7,464 nt of DNA, taken from assembly GCA_023653245.1 (NCBI GenBank), contig JAMNXK010000089.1, positions 1-7,464 of the forward strand. The letters run 5' to 3'. Source of the stretch: Tagaea sp. GTDB taxonomy: Bacteria > Pseudomonadota > Alphaproteobacteria > CACIAM-22H2. Within the stretch, counting starts at the first letter, position 1, and every line of letters begins with the position of its first letter. Under the pieces are notes generated by a model. It saw only the letters and a program-made list of their open reading frames with translations. It searched no databases and had not been told where the DNA came from. The position numbers and the translations under genes were made by a program. Positions 1 through 7,464 of the stretch are shown piece by piece.

Positions 1-2
1 AC

Positions 3-647
3 GCGATCTGCAAGCGCCACGGCATCGCGCTGATCCTCGACGAGGTGATGTGCGGCATGGGCCGCACGGGTTCGCTCTTCGCCTACGAACGCGAAAACAT
101 CCGCCCCGACATCGTGGCGATCGCCAAGGGCCTGGGCGGCGGGGCGCAACCGATCGGCGCGCTGCTGGTGGCCCCGGCGATCGTCGCGGCGATCGAGGGC
201 GGTTCGGGCGCCTTCAAACACGGCCACACCTATTTGGGGCATCCGATGGCGTGCGCGGCGGCTTTGGCCGTGCAGCGCGCGATCCGCGACGAAGACCTGC
301 TCGCGAATGTCCGCGCGATGGGCGCGCGGCTCGAAGCCGGATTGACCGAGCGCCTGGGCAATCACGCGCATGCCGGCGACATTCGCGGGCGCGGGCTGTT
401 TTGGGCGGTCGAGTTCGTGGCCGAGCGCGCCGCGAAAACCCCATTCGATCCGGCGCGCAAATTCAACGCGGCCGTCAAGCGCGAAGCCTTCGCGCGCGGC
501 CTGCTGGTCTACGCCATGGGTGGGACGATCGACGGCGCGCGCGGCGATCACGTCATACTCGCCCCGCCCTACAATTCCACGCCGGAAGAGATCGATTTCT
601 GCGTCGCGGCTTTGGGGACGGCGATCGACGCCGCGCGCGCGTCGTGA
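3..647 (+). CDS. Class III PLP-dependent aminotransferase, C-terminal half (5' end outside window)
   Basis: The reading frame is open from the first bases of the window and gives 214 visible residues. It carries the hallmarks of class III (omega) aminotransferases: LILDEV at visible residues 10-15, whose Asp13 should contact the pyridine nitrogen of PLP; a GRTG motif; and AIAKGLGGG, whose Lys42 (bases 126-128) is the expected Schiff-base lysine. HGHTYLGHP follows, and then the small C-terminal domain ending with an LAPPYN segment. Family members are usually about 430-460 residues, so roughly half of the gene lies upstream; the ATG at base 45 is internal, not the start. The enzyme should move an amino group between an amine or omega-amino acid and a keto acid in the cytoplasm, but the substrate cannot be read from this part. 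The stop overlaps the start of the racemase-like gene, which suggests one transcript. Confidence 0.93.
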   Translation, partial: AICKRHGIALILDEVMCGMGRTGSLFAYERENIRPDIVAIAKGLGGGAQPIGALLVAPAIVAAIEGGSGAFKHGHTYLGHPMACAAALAVQRAIRDEDLLANVRAMGARLEAGLTERLGNHAHAGDIRGRGLFWAVEFVAERAAKTPFDPARKFNAAVKREAFARGLLVYAMGGTIDGARGDHVILAPPYNSTPEEIDFCVAALGTAIDAARAS

Positions 648-1291
648 GCCGGATTTTCCTCATCCACGCTTTGCGCGATTCGGTCGAGCCCGCCCGCACC
701 GCCATGGCGCGCTTCTGGCCCGAAGCGGACGTCGTGAACCTGCTCGACGATTCGCTCTCGGCGGATCTGGCGCGGGCCGGGAAACTCGACGCCGCGATGA
801 TCGCGCGCTTCGCGCGCCTCGGCCGCTACGCGCGCGACCAGCGCGCGGACGGCATCCTGTTCACCTGCTCGGCCTTCGGCCCGGCGATCGAGGCCGTCGC
901 GGCCGAGCTGCCGATCCCCGTGCTCAAACCCAACGAAAGCGCGTTCCGCGCGGCGCTCGCGCACGGCAAGCGCATCGGACTGCTCGTGACCTTTCCGGGC
1001 TCGCTCGCTCCCTTGACCGAAGAGCTCCAGACCATGGCCGGGCCCGATTTGGAACTGCACGCGCGCGTCGTGCCCGCCGCACTCGCGGCTTTGCAGGCGG
1101 GCGACGGCGAAACCCACGACCGCAAGATCGCCGACGCGGCTTCGCATCTGCCGCCGGTGGACGCGCTGGTGCTCGGTCAATTCTCGATGGCGCGCGCGGC
1201 CCCCGCGATCGCGGACCGGACGGTCTACACCACGCCCGGCGCCGCCGTCGCCGAGCTCAAAGCGCGCGTCACTTCCCTTCGAGCGCGTTGA
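644..1291 (+). CDS. Asp/Glu racemase superfamily protein (single-cysteine type)
   Basis: A 215-residue cytoplasmic protein starting at GTG 644, which overlaps the aminotransferase stop as GTGA. No clear ribosome site precedes it, so translational coupling is likely. The N-terminus (RIFLIHAL) is a Rossmann-like first strand. ILFTCSAFGP at residues 71-80 holds Cys75 in the place of the first catalytic cysteine of Asp/Glu/hydantoin racemases. PNESAF at 96-101 and GLLVTFPGS at 112-120 fit the same two-domain fold. The second catalytic position, normally a Cys in an LGCT-like motif, reads LVLGQFSMA, so Gln179 replaces it and Cys75 is the only cysteine in the protein. From memory, a set of proteobacterial relatives shares this Gln. 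A classical two-base racemization is therefore doubtful; an isomerase, lyase or decarboxylase-like activity is possible. The substrate is probably linked to that of the aminotransferase. Confidence 0.85.
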   Translation: MSRIFLIHALRDSVEPARTAMARFWPEADVVNLLDDSLSADLARAGKLDAAMIARFARLGRYARDQRADGILFTCSAFGPAIEAVAAELPIPVLKPNESAFRAALAHGKRIGLLVTFPGSLAPLTEELQTMAGPDLELHARVVPAALAALQAGDGETHDRKIADAASHLPPVDALVLGQFSMARAAPAIADRTVYTTPGAAVAELKARVTSLRAR

Positions 1292-3389
1292 CCGCGTCCC
1301 AATCGGGCCCGGGCGGATCGGCGAGCGCCGCCTCGACCCGGCCCAAGAACGAAGCGGCCGCCGGATCGCGCGCGGCGGCTTCGGCCAAGACCGCCTTGGC
1401 GCCGGCGAAATCGCGCGCGCGATACAGCACCAGCGCTTCGGCGTAGGGCCCTGCGAGTCCCGCGCGTTCGGCGGTCAAGGGCTCGTGGATTGCCACAGGC
1501 GCGGCGCGGCCTTTGACCTTCACGCGGTCGAGTTCGCGCCACACGATACCGTCCGCGCCCGCCGCCCGGCGCGTGGCGTCGGCGACCATGATCGCCGAGC
1601 CGAAATACTTGTTCGCCCCTTCCAGGCGCGAGGCGAGGTTCACCGTGTCGCCCATGACCGTGTAGTTGAAGCGCCGCGTCGAGCCGATATTCCCGACCAG
1701 CGCGCGGCCGGTGTTCACGCCGATGCGCGCGCCCAGCCGCTTGCCCCGGAACGGCTCGGCGGGATCGTCGTTGAGCCGGGCGAGCTTCGCCTGGCATTCG
1801 AGCGCGGCTTTCACGGCCGCGCGCGCATGGCCGGGATCGTCGAGGGGGGCGCCGAACACCGCGACGATCGCATCGCCGATATACTTGTCGACGAAGCCGC
1901 CATTCGCTTCCACGATCTCGGTCATCGCCGAGAGATAGACGTTCATGGTGGCGACGAGTTCGGCCGGCGTCAGGCCCTCCGACAAAGCCGTGAACCCCGC
2001 GACGTCGGAGAACAGCACCGAGATCTCGCGCTCCTCCCCGCCCAAGCGCGGCGGCTTGTCGCCCGCGACCAGCTTGTCGATCACGGCGGGCGCCAAATAG
2101 AGCGCGAAGCTCTGGCGCAGGAAGCGCTTGTCCTTGTCGGCGATCGCGAAGCGCCAGCCCATGGTCAACGCGGCCGCCAAGGCCGCCGCGGCCAATCCGT
2201 CGAGCCAGGGAATCACCAGCGCGCTCCGCAGCAGCAGCGTCGCGAATGCGGTCCATAGCGCGGCCAAACCCAGCAGTGCCGCGCCCGCGAGCGAAGCGGG
2301 CAACGCCAGCGCCGCCGCCGCCGCGAGCGCCACGCCGGGCAGTGCGGCGAGCGCGCGTTCGCCGGCCGAGAGCGTGCGCAAGCCGCCGCCGCGCAGGAAA
2401 TTCTCGATCGCCGCGGCGTGGATCAACACGCCCGGAACCGCCTCGCGCACGAACCCGGCCTTGACCAGATCGGCGCGGGGTTCGAGCGCGCAGCGCGGCC
2501 CCGCCCCCGCCCCTTCGGGGCCGGTCATGAAACGCTTGGCGGTGATCTTGCGGTCCTCGACGTCGAGCACCACGCCCACCAGCACGGCCTTGCCCGCGAA
2601 ATGGCGCTTGAAGAAGGCGGCGTCGTTCTTGTCCACGCAGGCGCGCAAATCGGCCAGCGAGAAAATCGGCACCTCGCGCCCGCCGCCGGTGAAGTCCACC
2701 GTCATGGCGTTGTCGTGGCCGCCGGGAATCCGCTTTCCCGAGAACGTCACCGTGCCGTTCGCCTCCTCGGGTCGAACGCCGGCCATGCGCGCTGCGATCT
2801 CCAATGCGAAGGCGGTTTCGCGGCGCGTCGTTCCGCCTTGGCCTTCGGCTTCGAAGAACAACGGCACGCGGCGGATGGCGTCGTCGCGATCGGCGAGGAG
2901 ATTGACCGCGCGGATGTTCTGGGCGTGGCCGACGGCGAAGCTTTGGCCCTGAAAGGGTGCGATCGGCTGGGTCTGGTGCTGGACCTTGCCGAGCAGCACG
3001 CGGCCGTCGCGCGCGCCCGCGCGAAGGGCGCGCAGAAAGTCGCGCTCGAACCCGGGCACGAGACGCTCGACCGAGGTCGGAAAGATCACGTCGAAGGCGA
3101 CGATCTTGGCTTCGGCGTCGAGCACGGCGTTGAGCACGGGGGCCAGCTCGCGCGTCCACAGCGCCTGGGGCAGGCCGCCGAAGGGCGGCGTGCGGTGGGT
3201 TTCCTCGTCGATCGCGATCACGACGACGTTGGAGTCTTCGGGCCCGCGCGCCGGCCCGAAGACCGCGTGGCGCAGCGCGAAGCCCGCGTCGAGCGACAAG
3301 CCGCCGAGGCGCTCGCCCCAGGGCGTCGCCGGAAAGAGCGAGACAACCGCGACGATCGACGCGGCGACGGCGATCTCGCGGAACTTCAT
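1269..3389 (-). CDS. CHASE2-domain class IIIb adenylate cyclase, membrane-bound
   Basis: A 706-residue protein predicted to make cAMP from ATP in response to a periplasmic signal. In order: membrane segment at about 7-24; periplasmic CHASE2 sensor at about 30-335 (VVVIAIDEETH at 55-65, IVAFDVIFPTS at 96-106); three membrane segments within about 346-413; cytoplasmic class III cyclase domain at about 450-640; and a helical tail to 706 ending PPGPDWDAV. Catalytic residues are complete: metal-binding Asp462 (FSDVAGF) and Asp506 (KYIGD), purine-selecting Lys502, Thr577 in NYTVMGD, Asn584 and Arg588. Thr at 577 instead of Asp is the class IIIb pattern, which in studied members goes with adenylate specificity and bicarbonate stimulation. 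The ATG touches the TAG of the upstream gene (TAGATG) with no Shine-Dalgarno, so translation is probably coupled. The 3' end overlaps the racemase-like gene by 23 bases. The signal sensed by CHASE2 is unknown. Confidence 0.95.
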   Translation of the reverse strand: MKFREIAVAASIVAVVSLFPATPWGERLGGLSLDAGFALRHAVFGPARGPEDSNVVVIAIDEETHRTPPFGGLPQALWTRELAPVLNAVLDAEAKIVAFDVIFPTSVERLVPGFERDFLRALRAGARDGRVLLGKVQHQTQPIAPFQGQSFAVGHAQNIRAVNLLADRDDAIRRVPLFFEAEGQGGTTRRETAFALEIAARMAGVRPEEANGTVTFSGKRIPGGHDNAMTVDFTGGGREVPIFSLADLRACVDKNDAAFFKRHFAGKAVLVGVVLDVEDRKITAKRFMTGPEGAGAGPRCALEPRADLVKAGFVREAVPGVLIHAAAIENFLRGGGLRTLSAGERALAALPGVALAAAAALALPASLAGAALLGLAALWTAFATLLLRSALVIPWLDGLAAAALAAALTMGWRFAIADKDKRFLRQSFALYLAPAVIDKLVAGDKPPRLGGEEREISVLFSDVAGFTALSEGLTPAELVATMNVYLSAMTEIVEANGGFVDKYIGDAIVAVFGAPLDDPGHARAAVKAALECQAKLARLNDDPAEPFRGKRLGARIGVNTGRALVGNIGSTRRFNYTVMGDTVNLASRLEGANKYFGSAIMVADATRRAAGADGIVWRELDRVKVKGRAAPVAIHEPLTAERAGLAGPYAEALVLYRARDFAGAKAVLAEAAARDPAAASFLGRVEAALADPPGPDWDAVNALEGK

Positions 3390-4049
3390 CTAGAGACGCA
3401 GCAGCCGGGACACGATGGGCGCTTGGCCCGGCTTGGCCTCGGGATCGATCTTGAACACCATTTCGCGGCCCGGCCCGGCCGACGCCTTGTAGACGCCGCC
3501 CGCGACCAAAGCCTGTCCCGATTTGGCGAGATCGTGGAACGCGCCGCGCTGGAGCTGCTGGGCCGCGACCTGGATGGTCAGCTTCTCGCCCGCTTGGTCG
3601 ACGCGCTCGATCGTCACCGTGCCGCCGCCGCGCACGTCGAGCACCGGCGACAGGCCGTAAAGCGTGGCTTGCGGCTGCGCGGGCGCGCCCGCCGGTCGCG
3701 GCGGCGCGCGGAACACCATCACCCCGGCCTGGCCGGATTGGGCTTGCGTGAGGCGCATGCGCCCGCCGTCGCATTCGACTTTCTCGCGGCGTACACTGCC
3801 GCCGGCGACATCCGACCGCTCGGCGCCCACGGTGACCGTGCCGCCTTTGATCGTTTCGCGCCAACACGAGCGCAGATAGCCGAGCACCAGCTCGTCGTTG
3901 GGGCCGAGTTTGATCACCCGCCCCACATCGACATAGTCCATGAAATCGACGTCGAGATTGCGCCCCTTGGCGTCCTCGACCAAAGCGGCTTGCTGGGCGA
4001 AGGCGGGGACGGCGATCAACATCGCGGCGGCGGCAAGAATTCGGCGCAT
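3390..4049 (-). CDS. Small secreted (periplasmic) protein of unknown family
   Basis: The 219-residue product begins with a clear signal peptide: MRR, a hydrophobic stretch at about 4-16, and AFA at 16-18 before a likely cut ahead of Gln19. ATG 4047-4049 was chosen because AAGGGG lies six bases upstream and the signal peptide starts there; an in-frame ATG 72 bases further up would add a GC-rich, non-signal extension. The mature part looks beta-rich: VDVGRVIKLGPNDELVLGYL at 40-59, then SCWRETIKGGTVTVG at 61-75, with two cysteines (62 and 93) that could form a disulphide. A Pro/Ala-rich linker at about 115-127 separates a second part containing TVTIERVDQAGEKLTIQV at 144-161. I recognise no named family; by eye the first part loosely recalls FecR-like beta domains, which is only a hint. 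Its position between a secreted caspase-like protein and a CHASE2 cyclase suggests a periplasmic partner of one of them. Confidence 0.85.
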   Translation of the reverse strand: MRRILAAAAMLIAVPAFAQQAALVEDAKGRNLDVDFMDYVDVGRVIKLGPNDELVLGYLRSCWRETIKGGTVTVGAERSDVAGGSVRREKVECDGGRMRLTQAQSGQAGVMVFRAPPRPAGAPAQPQATLYGLSPVLDVRGGGTVTIERVDQAGEKLTIQVAAQQLQRGAFHDLAKSGQALVAGGVYKASAGPGREMVFKIDPEAKPGQAPIVSRLLRL

Positions 4050-4055
4050 GGCGGA

Positions 4056-4061
4056 CCCCTT
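4056..4061 (-). promoter_or_regulatory. Ribosome binding site of the small secreted protein
   Basis: The minus strand reads AAGGGG, then six bases (TCCGCC), then ATG at 4049. It is the clearest Shine-Dalgarno-like sequence among the minus-strand genes and decides the start in favour of the ATG that opens the signal peptide rather than the in-frame ATG at 4121. Confidence 0.65.
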
Positions 4062-4092
4062 GGTTGGCGCGATCCTACCCGAACCAGCGGCC

Positions 4093-4118
4093 CCGGCAAT
4101 GACGGCCGTCACAGCCGG
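4093..4118. other. Intercistronic near-palindrome (hairpin or degenerate CRP-like site)
   Basis: The centre TGACGGCCGTCA (4100-4111) is a perfect 12-base palindrome. Outside two unpaired positions on each side, the symmetry continues as CCGGC (4093-4097) and GCCGG (4114-4118). In the minus-strand transcript this could fold into a stem with a GGCC loop, one G-U pair and one U-U mismatch. It starts 7 bases after the caspase stop and lies 43 bases before the next start. No U-tract follows, so it is not an obvious intrinsic terminator; it may stabilise or process the mRNA. Read as DNA, bases 4098-4113 also match TGTGA-N6-TCACA at 8 of 10 positions, but the GC-rich core makes CRP binding doubtful. 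Confidence 0.5.
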
Positions 4119-4124
4119 CATGGG

Positions 4125-5558
4125 TCAGCGATAGAGGATTTCGTGCTTGCGCCCGCGCGAACTCTCGAAGACGGTCCGGGCCTGCAATCGGCCGTTGGCT
4201 TCGACGACCTGGCCGGTCACAGTGTAGCGATCCTCGCCGTGATAACCCGAGCAAACGAGTTCAAAGGGATCGAGCGTCCGATCCGTGCCGACCACCCCGA
4301 CCCCGACGCACCGGATGACGTTCGTGACGCCGCCATGGGCGTGCGAAGTTCCCGTCAAGCGCACAACTCCCTCTTCGATCGTCAGGTATGAATCCACGAT
4401 CGTGGGATTGAGGACACCGGGCGAAATATTGGCGCGTAGTTGCGCATTCACCGGCGCGAAGACGCGCGACACCGCGCCCGCCGCCGACGCAATCTGCCGA
4501 GAACTCTGGCTCCGGAACTCGTCCATGGCCCGGCGCGCGCGTTCGGCTTCCGGACCCAGCCGCACCGTTTCTTGCGCCTCCAGCGCTCGCGCCGTTTCGG
4601 CCTGAAGGCGCGCGGCTTCGGCTTGGCTCGTCAGGCGTTGGGCTTCCGCCGCCGCTTGCGCGCGCGCGGCTTCGACCGCCGCGAGGCGCGCGCGCGCGAT
4701 CGGCGCGAAATGTCCGTTGGGATACAGCGTCAAATACGCGTTCAGCTCGGCCGGATCGGTGGACCCCTTTATCGAGTCCCAGAACATCGCTTCGCGGACG
4801 GCCGTCTGTTCGACAGGCGGCACGAAGAAGAAATCGCCGGTAAGCGAAGACGCTTCCCATGGGATCTGCGACCCGCCCGACGCGCGCGCGACTTCGATGC
4901 GCACGCTCTTGAACACTTCCTCGACCATCAAACCCGGCTCCGCAAGCGCCTTCAGCAGCGCTTGGGTGTAAAGACCGTTCGCTCCTTCGCCGTCGGCCGC
5001 CACGCGTCCTGGCGCGGTCGCATAGGCGATCAGAGTGCCTTCCGGCGCGTTGATTTGGGCAAGACCGCCGCCGGTCGAGCGGAAACGCCGCTCGAAAGGG
5101 TTGTTGCGGCAGGCGTCCAGGATCACCAAGCTGACTTTCGCCTTGGCCGCCGTGGTCTGATCGAGCACGGCCTCGACATCCAGCGCCTCCAGGCGCACGC
5201 GCTGCTCGGACGTGATCCGCGCATCGACCGGCAGAAGGTAATTCCGCCCCTGGACCTGCATCCCGTGGCCCGCGAAGAAGAAGAGCGCCGTGTCGCCGGC
5301 GGAAAGCTTTTCCCCGAAATCGGCCACCGCGTCGTTGAACTGCGCCTTGGACACATTCTCGCGCAGCAACACCTCGAAACCCTTGCCGCGAAGCTGGCGG
5401 GCGACCGCGCGCGCGTCGTTGACCGGATTGCGCAATGGCGCCTCGGCGTAGGCCGCGTTGCCGACGACCAGCGCCACCTTCTTGGCCGCAAACGCCGGCG
5501 CCGCCGATGCCAGAAGCGCCAACCCCATCACGACAAATTTTGCGGCGTTCCGAAGCAT
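4125..5558 (-). CDS. Secreted caspase-like protein (peptidase C14 family) with coiled coil and novel C-terminal domain
   Basis: From ATG 5556-5558 the product has 477 residues. A signal peptide spans about 1-24 (LRNAAKF, hydrophobic core, AFA before the cut). The caspase-fold domain covers about 26-246: KKVALVVGN opens it, FFFAGHG supplies catalytic His98, LVILDACRNNPF supplies catalytic Cys150, and PWEASSLTGDFFF closes it. FWDSIKGSTDPAELNAYLTLYPNG at about 259-282 is a helical segment often attached to such bacterial caspases. An Ala/Glu/Arg-rich coiled coil follows (about 285-350), then a beta-rich domain at about 375-477 with cysteines 417 and 436 that I do not recognise. Bacterial C14 members cut after Arg, Lys or Asp depending on subgroup; specificity is not readable here. 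An ATG at 5601-5603 would add 15 residues, but it lies inside the predicted -10 box and masks the signal peptide. It is the first gene of the predicted operon leading to the cyclase. Confidence 0.92.
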   Translation of the reverse strand: MLRNAAKFVVMGLALLASAAPAFAAKKVALVVGNAAYAEAPLRNPVNDARAVARQLRGKGFEVLLRENVSKAQFNDAVADFGEKLSAGDTALFFFAGHGMQVQGRNYLLPVDARITSEQRVRLEALDVEAVLDQTTAAKAKVSLVILDACRNNPFERRFRSTGGGLAQINAPEGTLIAYATAPGRVAADGEGANGLYTQALLKALAEPGLMVEEVFKSVRIEVARASGGSQIPWEASSLTGDFFFVPPVEQTAVREAMFWDSIKGSTDPAELNAYLTLYPNGHFAPIARARLAAVEAARAQAAAEAQRLTSQAEAARLQAETARALEAQETVRLGPEAERARRAMDEFRSQSSRQIASAAGAVSRVFAPVNAQLRANISPGVLNPTIVDSYLTIEEGVVRLTGTSHAHGGVTNVIRCVGVGVVGTDRTLDPFELVCSGYHGEDRYTVTGQVVEANGRLQARTVFESSRGRKHEILYR

Positions 5559-5567
5559 TTCACCCAC

Positions 5568-5583
5568 GAACACAGCTGAACAC
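5568..5583 (-). repeat. Two GAACAC direct repeats, ten bases apart, in the predicted 5' leader
   Basis: Plus strand GAACAC at 5568-5573 and again at 5578-5583, separated by AGCT; on the coding strand this is GTGTTC twice, one helical turn apart. They lie between the predicted transcription start and the caspase start codon. Such spacing suits tandem binding of a regulator, but a short repeat like this can arise by chance. Confidence 0.3.
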
Positions 5584-5591
5584 TCTGGATA

Positions 5592-5604
5592 TCTTTGTAC
5601 CATA
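5592..5604 (-). promoter_or_regulatory. Predicted -10 box and transcription start of the caspase-cyclase operon
   Basis: The minus strand reads TATGGT (5604 to 5599), matching TATAAT at 4 of 6 positions, and the implied start is the A at 5592. The -35 region is poor (CAGGCT with a 17-base spacer), as expected of an activator-dependent promoter. The implied start puts the centre of the CRP-type palindrome at -41.5, the class II position. TACAAA just downstream is an alternative -10 with an equal score and would shift the spacing to about -45.5, so the assignment is tentative. A start at 5592 leaves a leader of about 33 bases before ATG 5558 and rules out the ATG at 5603. Confidence 0.45.
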
Positions 5605-5625
5605 GCGATTCGAGACCGGCCAGCC

Positions 5626-5641
5626 TGTGATGCGTATCACA
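5626..5641. promoter_or_regulatory. CRP-type operator, perfect TGTGA-N6-TCACA palindrome
   Basis: TGTGATGCGTATCACA has six-base arms (TGTGAT/ATCACA) in perfect inverted symmetry around GCGT and matches the cAMP receptor protein core consensus at all ten conserved bases. FNR/FixK-type sites carry TTGAT-N4-ATCAA, so this is CRP-like rather than FNR-like. It sits two bases beyond the stop of the CHAT gene, in the gap upstream of the caspase gene. As RNA it could form only a six-pair hairpin with no U-tract, so a terminator is less likely. The operon it faces encodes an adenylate cyclase, which suggests feedback by cAMP. Confidence 0.72.
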
Positions 5642-5643
5642 CC

Positions 5644-7464
5644 CTACCGCGCGTCGGAGGTTTGGCGCGGGTTGCCGCCGCCATCGCCGACCAGCGAGAA
5701 CGGCGCCCAGAAGATCGGGTGGCTATAGGCGAAGACCGTGGCGCGGCTGGCCGGGTCGATGGCACCCGGCCCGTCGATGAGCCCGGTCATCGCCTGGCGC
5801 AAGGCTTGGGCGCGGGCGAGGCCTGGGTCGCGCGCCTGCCGGGCGAACAGATCGGTGGTGAGTTCGCGTGCCGAGGTGGTCTCAACCGGCCAGTTGGACA
5901 CCAATAGCGCGCGCGTGCCGGCGTAGAAGAACGCCCGGCCCAGACCCGAGACCGCTTCGGCACCCGCCCCGTCGCCCGTCGCCGTGTTGCATGCCGAGAG
6001 CACGACCCAATCGGCATTGAGCTTCAAGGCAAGCACCTCGTCGAGCGTGAGCAGCCCGTCGCCGTCCACGTCGGCGACGTCGGGCGCGGACAAGGCGAGG
6101 GCCGGCTGGGTGAGCCCGTTGAGGTCCCCCGGGATCAGCCCGTGGGTGGCGAACATCACGACCCGACGGTTGGAGATGTCCATGCCCTTCACATTGCGCT
6201 CGTTGGCTTGCGCCCCCAAGATCACGTCCGATGGGTCGGCGTTGAGCGCCAGGGCGATCCCGCGCACCTCGTCGGCCGTGTCGGGCAGGCGCGGCAGCAT
6301 GCCGAGTTCCGCGCTATCGACGTTCTGCGTGGCGGGCGCATTGCGCCGAACCAGCGGCAGCCCGCGCGTCTGCAAGCCCGCGCCCCGGGTTTGCAGCTGA
6401 GCGGTTTGCGTGCGCACTTCGGCGGCTTGTTCGCGGCTGAACCACGGATCGCCGAAGCCCACGAAGGCGCGCCGGTTGGCCGGCGGCACCGGCAAGCCCC
6501 GCAAGGTCGCCAAAGCCGCGACCGACGGCAGCTGCGTGATTGCCGCCTTGCGGATCAGAAACGGCACGTCTTTGTAGGCGGCGAACAGCGCCTCGCCTTG
6601 GCGTTCGGCGCGCAGCGGCGAGGCTTGGGTCACCAGCACGCCGAAGGGCAGCTGGCCGAGCGCGTCGTGCGGCACGACCAGCAGCGACTCCGCGTTGGCG
6701 AAACCGGCTTCGACGGGCTTCAACAGATCGTTATAGAGCGCATGCGCGAGACCGACATCGAAGGCCGGGATATCGCCCAATGTCGCGGCGTTGGGATCCA
6801 GGGACTTGCGCAAAGTGGCGACCGTCTCGGCGATCGCGCGCTGGCCCTTGTCCACGGCGGCGAACGCCACGGCGCCGGCTTGCGGCACGGCCCAGACGAA
6901 AGTTCGATCGCGCCCCACATAGGTGGCGATCAACGCCTCGCCCGGCCGCAAGCTCCGTCGCGTCTCCTCGATGGTCGCGGGCCGCGGATCGATGAGCTGG
7001 GCGTAGCTCGGGAAGCGCCGCTCGATCTCCAGGCGCAAGGCCGCCCGCGCCGAGCGCAAGCTGTCGATCTGGGTGCGCAGCGCGCGCACCGCGTTCTCGT
7101 CGCGCTCGGCAGAAGCGAGCACGTTGGTGAGCAGCCCTTGAAGGGCGCCCACCTGCTTCTGGGTATCCTGTTCGTTGCGCACGAGTTCGGCCAATGCGGG
7201 ATCCGCGGCCGCCGCGCGCGCCGAGGATTGCGCCAGCGCGCGTTGCACGCCCTGGCCGCGCACCGCGTCGGCCAGGCGGAAGGCGTCCTCGGCGGCACCC
7301 GGCCGGCCCGAGCGTGCCAGTGCCCCCATCGCCGCTTCGAAGATCATTTTGAGCCGGTTCTCGCGCGAGGCCGACCCGCTCTCCTCGTCGTCGGCTTGGC
7401 GCGAAGACTGGAGCAGGATCGGCAGCGCCGCGTCGAACTCGACGAGCGCGGCCGGCACATCGCC
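5644..7464 (-). CDS. CHAT-domain caspase-like protein, N-terminus outside window
   Basis: The frame is open to the window edge, giving 606 visible residues; the GTG at 7456-7458 is not a supported start. Visible residues up to about 150 are helical, with a coiled-coil-like stretch near 115-150; relatives usually carry TPR repeats further upstream. The CHAT domain spans about 240-595: LLVVPHDALGQLPFG at about 261-275, catalytic His441 in VMFATHG, catalytic Cys492 in VVLSACNTATGDG, GLGRAFFYAGTRALLVSNWPV at about 507-527, and the closing HPIFWAPFSLVGD. The His/Cys pair is intact, so proteolytic activity is plausible. Between the two, residues 465-476 match a full EF-hand loop pattern. A short LQTRG repeat lies at about 357-368. 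CHAT proteins are caspase relatives often used as effectors switched on by partners. It precedes the caspase-cyclase operon on the same strand with no clear terminator between, so read-through is possible. Confidence 0.93.
   Translation of the reverse strand, partial: GDVPAALVEFDAALPILLQSSRQADDEESGSASRENRLKMIFEAAMGALARSGRPGAAEDAFRLADAVRGQGVQRALAQSSARAAAADPALAELVRNEQDTQKQVGALQGLLTNVLASAERDENAVRALRTQIDSLRSARAALRLEIERRFPSYAQLIDPRPATIEETRRSLRPGEALIATYVGRDRTFVWAVPQAGAVAFAAVDKGQRAIAETVATLRKSLDPNAATLGDIPAFDVGLAHALYNDLLKPVEAGFANAESLLVVPHDALGQLPFGVLVTQASPLRAERQGEALFAAYKDVPFLIRKAAITQLPSVAALATLRGLPVPPANRRAFVGFGDPWFSREQAAEVRTQTAQLQTRGAGLQTRGLPLVRRNAPATQNVDSAELGMLPRLPDTADEVRGIALALNADPSDVILGAQANERNVKGMDISNRRVVMFATHGLIPGDLNGLTQPALALSAPDVADVDGDGLLTLDEVLALKLNADWVVLSACNTATGDGAGAEAVSGLGRAFFYAGTRALLVSNWPVETTSARELTTDLFARQARDPGLARAQALRQAMTGLIDGPGAIDPASRATVFAYSHPIFWAPFSLVGDGGGNPRQTSDAR
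6037..6072 (-). other. EF-hand-like loop inside the CHAT domain
   Basis: The codons encode DVDGDGLLTLDE, with Asp at loop positions 1, 3 and 5, Gly at 6, Leu at 8 and Glu at 12: the classical calcium-binding loop pattern. It falls between catalytic His441 and Cys492. CHAT relatives often have a similar DGLLT-x-x-E segment here, so part of the match is family-typical; the added DxDxDG is what completes the pattern. Calcium binding is not demonstrated. Confidence 0.4.

Follow-up and report, generated by a model that had tools for sequence, protein, structure and literature searches.

In Escherichia coli, class II CRP-dependent promoters carry the operator TGTGA-N6-TCACA with its centre 41.5 bp before the transcription start. 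An exact match to this operator (site 1) and a second, less perfect one (site 2) are present in a 7,464-nucleotide stretch of Tagaea sp. DNA (GenBank assembly GCA_023653245.1, contig JAMNXK010000089.1, positions 1 to 7,464), hereafter called the window, in which minus-strand genes for a CHAT-domain protein, a caspase-domain protein, a small predicted exported protein (P3), and a CHASE2-domain class III cyclase follow one another. We consider it likely that the two sites are CRP-family operators at two class II-type promoters, whose transcripts would encode the cyclase and so give positive feedback.

The closest known system appears to be the feed-forward loop of CgrA, a CRP homologue of Rhodospirillum centenum. 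In the available text of the report on it, CgrA protects TGTGA-N6-TCACA upstream of RC1_3785-gcyB-gcyC-cgrA and raises expression of the cyclase subunit genes, with cyclic GMP (cGMP) output climbing in a feed-forward loop (PMC4681086). The locus described here resembles it in having a CRP-type operator upstream of a cyclase unit, both in the window and in its relatives. However, CgrA uses cGMP and cgrA lies in the same cluster, whereas the receptor genes of three relatives (G023, G017, and G020) lie on contigs other than that of the operon, and the cyclase here is a single-chain CHASE2 protein with CHAT and caspase neighbours. The word caspase is absent from the main text of the CgrA paper (PMC4681086).

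In Sinorhizobium meliloti, the CHASE2 cyclases CyaD1, CyaD2, and CyaK feed the CRP-like protein Clr, whose targets, in the available parts of the papers, include the cyclase gene cyaF2 as well as a large TPR protein and a FecR-domain protein encoded close to cyaD1 (PMC5498481, PMC10127613, PMC13001267); Clr is described there as responding to both cyclic AMP (cAMP) and cGMP (PMC10127613). The pairing of CHASE2 cyclases with a CRP-like receptor would be common to both systems, but the Clr consensus is HGTYHC-N4-GRWACA and P3 matched no FecR model. Neither window site contains the Clr core GTNNC-N4-GNNAC, site 1 having T instead of C at the fifth core position and site 2 ending in AT. The word caspase occurs 0 times in two of the Clr papers (PMC5498481 and PMC13001267), and a survey devoted to the caspase homologues of prokaryotes and the operons encoding them does not use the word cyclase (PMC3501461). 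No paper joining CHASE2, adenylate cyclase, and caspase was found in literature that omits most subscription journals, and broader searches gave nothing relevant among the matches listed.

Operators at the caspase gene and at P3

Site 1 (TGTGATGCGTATCACA, reading TGTGATACGCATCACA on the minus strand) occupies positions 5626-5641, between the CHAT gene and the caspase gene, and has 0 mismatches to TGTGA-N6-TCACA. Its six-base arms, TGTGAT and ATCACA around GCGT, are perfectly symmetric, exactly as the preliminary description had claimed. The site lies 2 bp from the CHAT stop codon, within the 85-bp gap between that stop and the caspase ATG, and its centre is 75.5 bp before this ATG at 5558 (30.5 bp if the caspase started at 5603). 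At up to two mismatches, the window contains 2 matches against a shuffle mean of 0.77, and since at least two were also obtained in 35 of 200 shuffles, only the exact match stands out within the window. Seven relatives' genomes (~28 Mb in total) contain five exact sites (two in G023, one each in G017, G011, and G020, and none in G002, G001, or G022), three of which are at the caspase promoter (G023, G017, and G011); the other two lie inside a transporter-like reading frame in G020 and before other genes in G023. Sites with at most one mismatch numbered 134 in eight genomes versus 41 for a reversed-pattern control, a weak comparison because dinucleotide content is not preserved in the control.

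A scan of species genomes for caspase relatives gave 59 loci, one with the whole gene order (L002, in genome G002) and one with part of it (L001). The family set consisted of the 23 genomes of the family of G002, and an order-level search gave the same 23. Caspase matches (E <= 1e-50) were present in 11 of these, and the order CHAT-caspase-P3-cyclase was found in G023 (72-88% identity), G020, G017, and G002; the contig of G001 starts at the caspase, with the upstream DNA not visible. The core GTGA-N6-TCAC precedes the caspase in all five caspase-P3-CHASE2-cyclase loci with visible upstream DNA (the window and these four), at 69.5-81.5 bp from the caspase start (for G002, 81.5 bp to the ATG and 87.5 bp to the aligned first residue). 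Both arms are thus kept in the orthologous loci, the point on which the preliminary description had proposed to check the palindrome, with 0 mismatches in the window, G023, and G017, 1 in G020, and 2 in G002, and the central bases differ in each of the five loci. Among 67 distinct caspase upstream regions, the core was found in 9, all belonging to the 17 most similar caspases, a cut-off set once the data had been viewed. This count dropped duplicates, matches starting past query residue 35, and matches less than 200 bases from the locus start (G001 among them). Elsewhere in the same loci, the core occurred 8 times in 615,191 positions. The distance in G011 is 51.5 or 81.5 bp, depending on the start used. 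In G003 (L003:4578-7960), two caspase genes stand in tandem with the site only before the first, as expected if the pair forms one operon.

Site 2 (TGTGACGGCCGTCATT, 4098-4113, minus strand), which lies before P3 and the cyclase and was overlooked in the preliminary description, has two mismatches and is centred 56.5 bp before the P3 ATG. The P3 searches used positions 3390-4052, one codon longer than the gene, and P3 distances in relatives were measured to the aligned first codon of this query, from which site 2 is 53.5 bp away. Site 2 is probably a second functional site; together with its TAGGAT box it is conserved in G023, and it is not present in G020, G017, or G002, where the gap between caspase and P3 is small or missing.

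P3 matches were found in 17 of the 23 family genomes, in several gene orders. The site stands between CHAT and caspase in the window, G023, G020, G017, and G002, and between CHAT and P3-cyclase, with no caspase, in G022, G024, and G021 (where one arm reads TCATA); it lies directly before P3-cyclase in G003 and heads a CHAT-P3-cyclase unit in G011. Across gene orders, then, the site stays at the front of the cyclase unit, and it does so in 9 of the 15 family genomes with visible DNA upstream of P3 (G023, G020, G017, G002, G021, G022, G024, G003, and G011); in G019 and G008 little of this DNA is visible, and in G001 and G026 the unit head cannot be seen. A core with two mismatches, 2.4 kb ahead of P3 in G013, was not counted. 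At class level, the core lies 89-191 bp upstream of P3 in 6 of 27 loci and nowhere else in those loci; three other loci were already in the set, two listed matches had no locus, and in L289 and L297, whose flanks were shortened and upstream stretch misplaced, no core occurs anywhere. A role in regulation is favoured by the sites found ahead of P3 in other gene orders, and since the site occurs both before caspases and before P3-cyclase units, the operator goes with both caspase and cyclase genes.

Promoter geometry, receptor, and cyclase

The preliminary description had taken TATGGT (5599-5604, minus strand), 21 bases after site 1, as the -10 box, which by arithmetic puts the inferred transcription start at 5592 (minus strand) and the centre of site 1 at -41.5. 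This arithmetic is right, and both the choice of hexamer and the class II position gain support from the relatives. At 20 bases past the palindrome, G023 has the same hexamer, TATGGT, and both G020 and G017 have TATGCT. When offsets were scored against TATAAT at nine caspase sites, the peak fell 20-21 bases after the palindrome and was reached by 0 of 2000 shuffles. Of 17 sites from 13 genomes, the window included, 15 have a TANNNT box beginning 20-22 bases past the palindrome, compared with a maximum of 6 for the best three-offset bin in 5000 shuffles, which, like all -10 shuffles here, preserve base content only. This count is weakened by the TANNNT form having been picked after the sequences were viewed, by the addition of G025 after its tail was viewed (14 of 16 without it), and by two exceptions, the caspase sites of G011 (no box) and G003 (box at 23). 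The CHAT site of G011 has a perfect TATAAT at 21.

Both window sites fit this spacing, site 1 at 21 and site 2 at 20, the latter with TAGGAT at 4072-4077 (minus strand), which is identical and equally spaced in G023. In the 15 sites, the TANNNT box begins 28.5-30.5 bp downstream of the operator centre; with a start 7 bases past the hexamer, site 1 is predicted to be centred at -41.5 and site 2 at -40.5. A class II position is the best reading of this geometry and would match E. coli class II promoters in operator and in the distance of 41.5 bp to the inferred start, but differ in the TANNNT-type -10 box. No sigma-70 consensus promoter was found in 3300-5900, as expected of a class II promoter. 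A longer caspase reading frame from the ATG at 5603 was rejected; its start falls within the -10 box, and the same ATG runs into a stop in G023.

The CRP-type regulator that the preliminary description supposed has counterparts among the relatives of the window's organism, whose own CRP we infer from them. A CRP-like protein (E <= 1e-20) was found in 19 of the 23 family genomes, with no match in G008, G009, G010, or G013 in the family search; G008 and G013 have P3 and lack the site. In 18 of the 19 genomes, the best match carries the phosphate pocket GE[LI]...R[ST]A together with a RETVAR helix (19 proteins in all, two of them from G002); the recognition helix is cut off in the match of G015, and the weaker paralogues G003b, G026b, G012b, and G003c differ in the motif. 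Two more distant genomes with the site before a caspase, G392 and G113, have a RETVAR protein, and G383, with the site before P3, gave no CRP-like match. By sequence, the closest solved relatives of the receptor are GlxR of Corynebacterium glutamicum (PDB 4byy, 4cyd, and 3r6s) and a mycobacterial CRP, followed by E. coli CAP. The helix of the main CRP cluster is defined as RE(T/M)VGR in the available text of PMC10127613, and in the relatives' receptor Ala replaces this Gly.

In G023, three other CRP/FNR-like proteins (L111, L115, and L119) have the helices ETVCR, ETVSR, or QWVTI, and this difference leaves the RETVAR protein as the best candidate for the receptor. An FNR-type receptor in G023 was considered and set aside, the three proteins inspected having non-RETVAR helices and L127 looking like a GntR protein. 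In G002, each copy of the CRP-like gene (G002:C396 and G002:C101) adjoins a class III cyclase match.

The third gene of the operon (1269-3389, minus strand), previously named a CHASE2 cyclase, indeed has CHASE2 and class III cyclase domains, with FSD, DKYIGD, and GDTVNLASR present. The best solved relatives of the cyclase domain are named adenylate cyclases. The lysine of DKYIGD marks adenylate cyclases and is also found in 6fht (Bacteriophytochrome, Adenylate cyclase), while the best match, 2w01, has Glu there. The enzyme probably makes cAMP. As to the cAMP feedback on cyclase and caspase put forward in the preliminary description, the placement of operators and promoters supports it, but the signal could be cGMP instead of cAMP. 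A Pycsar defence system was considered and rejected: the cyclase domain matches PycC models (best E 6.8e-28), but the only other match among the 4 proteins scanned was to a caspase model.

Comparison among relatives shows both sites, their arms, the -10 spacing, and a receptor gene. Site 1 is real and conserved as a CRP-type operator, and site 2 is probably a second one, both in class II-like promoters of the caspase and CHASE2-cyclase gene set. In the mechanism we propose, site 1 would drive caspase-P3-cyclase and site 2 P3-cyclase alone. The candidate receptor, with cAMP as its presumed ligand, would bind near -41 in place of a -35 box and direct RNA polymerase to the TANNNT box, which lies 20-22 bp past the operator, activating rather than repressing. 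A signal sensed outside the membrane would act through the CHASE2 cyclase to yield more cyclic nucleotide, which in turn would give more cyclase, a positive feedback that we regard as likely, and more exported caspase.

Genes of the window and sites elsewhere

The window has a G+C content of 69%. The CHAT gene (5644-7464, minus strand) is truncated by the window end; its relative in G023 is a TPR-CHAT protein with a lipoprotein-like start. In G002 (L002:6407-6768), an extra small open reading frame with a start that resembles a signal peptide by inspection lies between CHAT and the caspase promoter. The caspase gene (PF00656, E 1e-42) spans 4125-5558 (minus strand), with its start taken as the ATG at 5558. 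Its N terminus looks like a signal peptide by inspection, and in addition to the PF00656 match the aligned H98 and C150, which we take to be the His/Cys dyad, are invariant in 4 of 4 proteins. P3 (3390-4049, minus strand), whose signal peptide was likewise recognised by inspection, had no family match; its identification as a FecR protein was unsupported by Pfam (only HPTransfase, E 0.38), NCBIfam, and PADLOC. Convergent with the cyclase gene are two plus-strand genes, named by inspection as aminotransferase-like (3-647) and Asp/Glu-racemase-like (~644-1291), which adjoin the cyclase gene in G023 and G017 as well.

Elsewhere in the relatives' genomes, 20 site regions were hand-picked among the matches listed and serve as leads, not as a test, and crude gene calls put some of them inside reading frames (L212, L219, L224, L226, and L227). 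In G023 (L109:1501-1516) and G002 (L211:1545-1560), a similar site is found in the gap that separates an MlaA-type gene from a divergently oriented gene of the ArsR-methyltransferase type; Pfam was run on one protein per locus. One-mismatch sites precede a small reading frame and then a DUF2155 gene in G020 (L208:1587) and G002 (L210:1548), and the gene upstream of a comparable site in G017 (L209:1622) is the same as in the G020 locus. A further one-mismatch site (L225:1635-1650, G020) precedes, by ~183 bp, an unlinked gene for a TPR protein, the start of which is similar to the TPR-CHAT N terminus, and other one-mismatch sites stand before a related uncharacterised gene in G017 (L221:1576) and G020 (L222:1506), the G017 protein having no Pfam family.

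Alternative readings and significance

Several observations weigh against the proposed mechanism. The core is missing upstream of the other 50, more distant caspases and of the second tandem caspase copies (L101 and L104). No site lies upstream of P3 in 5 of the 15 family genomes (G018, G019, G008, G013, and G007), three of which (G018, G019, and G007) have the CRP gene, and in G025 there is only a two-mismatch site. At class level, the TANNNT box is found at 20-22 in 1 of the 6 P3 loci that contain a core. Upstream of P3, the frame is open in both the window and G023 and contains site 2, so coding could account for part of the conservation of this site; the list of open reading frames starts P3 at 4121 instead, which would place site 2 inside the frame. 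Caspases with the site and with no P3 or cyclase homologue in the fetched loci (G003, G011, G392, and G113) mean that linkage to the cyclase is not the only context of the site. G023 has eight PF00211 matches, i.e., several cyclase genes, so the CHASE2 cyclase is not the sole possible source of the nucleotide, and the feedback loop is probably one input among several. Finally, the base-contact positions of the receptor's C helix are Ser-Thr in G023 and Ala-Thr in G017, unlike Thr-Asn in GlxR, its closest solved relative, so the preferred ligand could be either cAMP or cGMP.

This last point bears on the possibility, real although on the unlikely side, that operator and feed-forward loop are as proposed but the receptor answers cGMP, as CgrA does, or both nucleotides, as Clr does, so that cAMP would not be the main inducer. 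The available texts associate cGMP with CgrA, which binds the same TGTGA-N6-TCACA (PMC4681086), and dual response with Clr (PMC10127613); on the other side stand the DKYIGD lysine shared with 6fht and the solved relatives named adenylate cyclases. It is unlikely, in our view, that the site serves mainly caspase and CHAT genes within a wider envelope regulon, control of the cyclase being a by-product of neighbourhood with no meaningful feedback. Such a regulon would fit the site-bearing caspases without a cyclase homologue, the eight PF00211 matches, and the similar sites before MlaA/ArsR-methyltransferase and DUF2155 genes in the hand-picked regions, but not the P3-cyclase units of G021, G022, G024, and G003, which have the site ahead of them and no intervening caspase, nor site 2 of the window and its counterpart in G023, nor the 6 of 27 loci at class level where the core precedes P3.

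CRP-family proteins are able to repress; still, repression by the bound receptor, and with it negative feedback, seems improbable given that 15 of 17 sites occupy the class II activation position relative to the TANNNT box and that no sigma-70 consensus promoter was found in 3300-5900. It is scarcely credible that the palindrome arose by chance or that it belongs to an RNA hairpin or a terminator. Two matches at up to two mismatches against 0.77 expected would agree with chance, but the conservation across loci would not, and as a hairpin or terminator the palindrome was rejected, the folding of 5559-5660 being no better than that of shuffles (z 0.69) and no terminator-like element having been found in the CHAT-caspase gap.

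Taking positive feedback through CRP-family operators as the preferred reading, we tentatively picture a self-amplifying cyclic-nucleotide switch by which envelope-stressed cells might make two caspase-clan proteins, the caspase and the TPR-CHAT protein, exported or linked to the membrane; the operator goes with caspase, CHAT, and cyclase genes even where these are unlinked, and they could form one regulon, possibly with a developmental or cell-death role. To our knowledge, the triggers of bacterial caspase homologues are poorly known, and here the promoter, the regulator class, and the likely second messenger of a bacterial caspase can be named from sequence. With this locus, feed-forward loops like that of CgrA would come to include a CHASE2 cyclase partnered by caspase and CHAT genes, and, if this is true, a cyclic-nucleotide signal may increase its own synthesis and, along with it, the output of an exported caspase-like protein.

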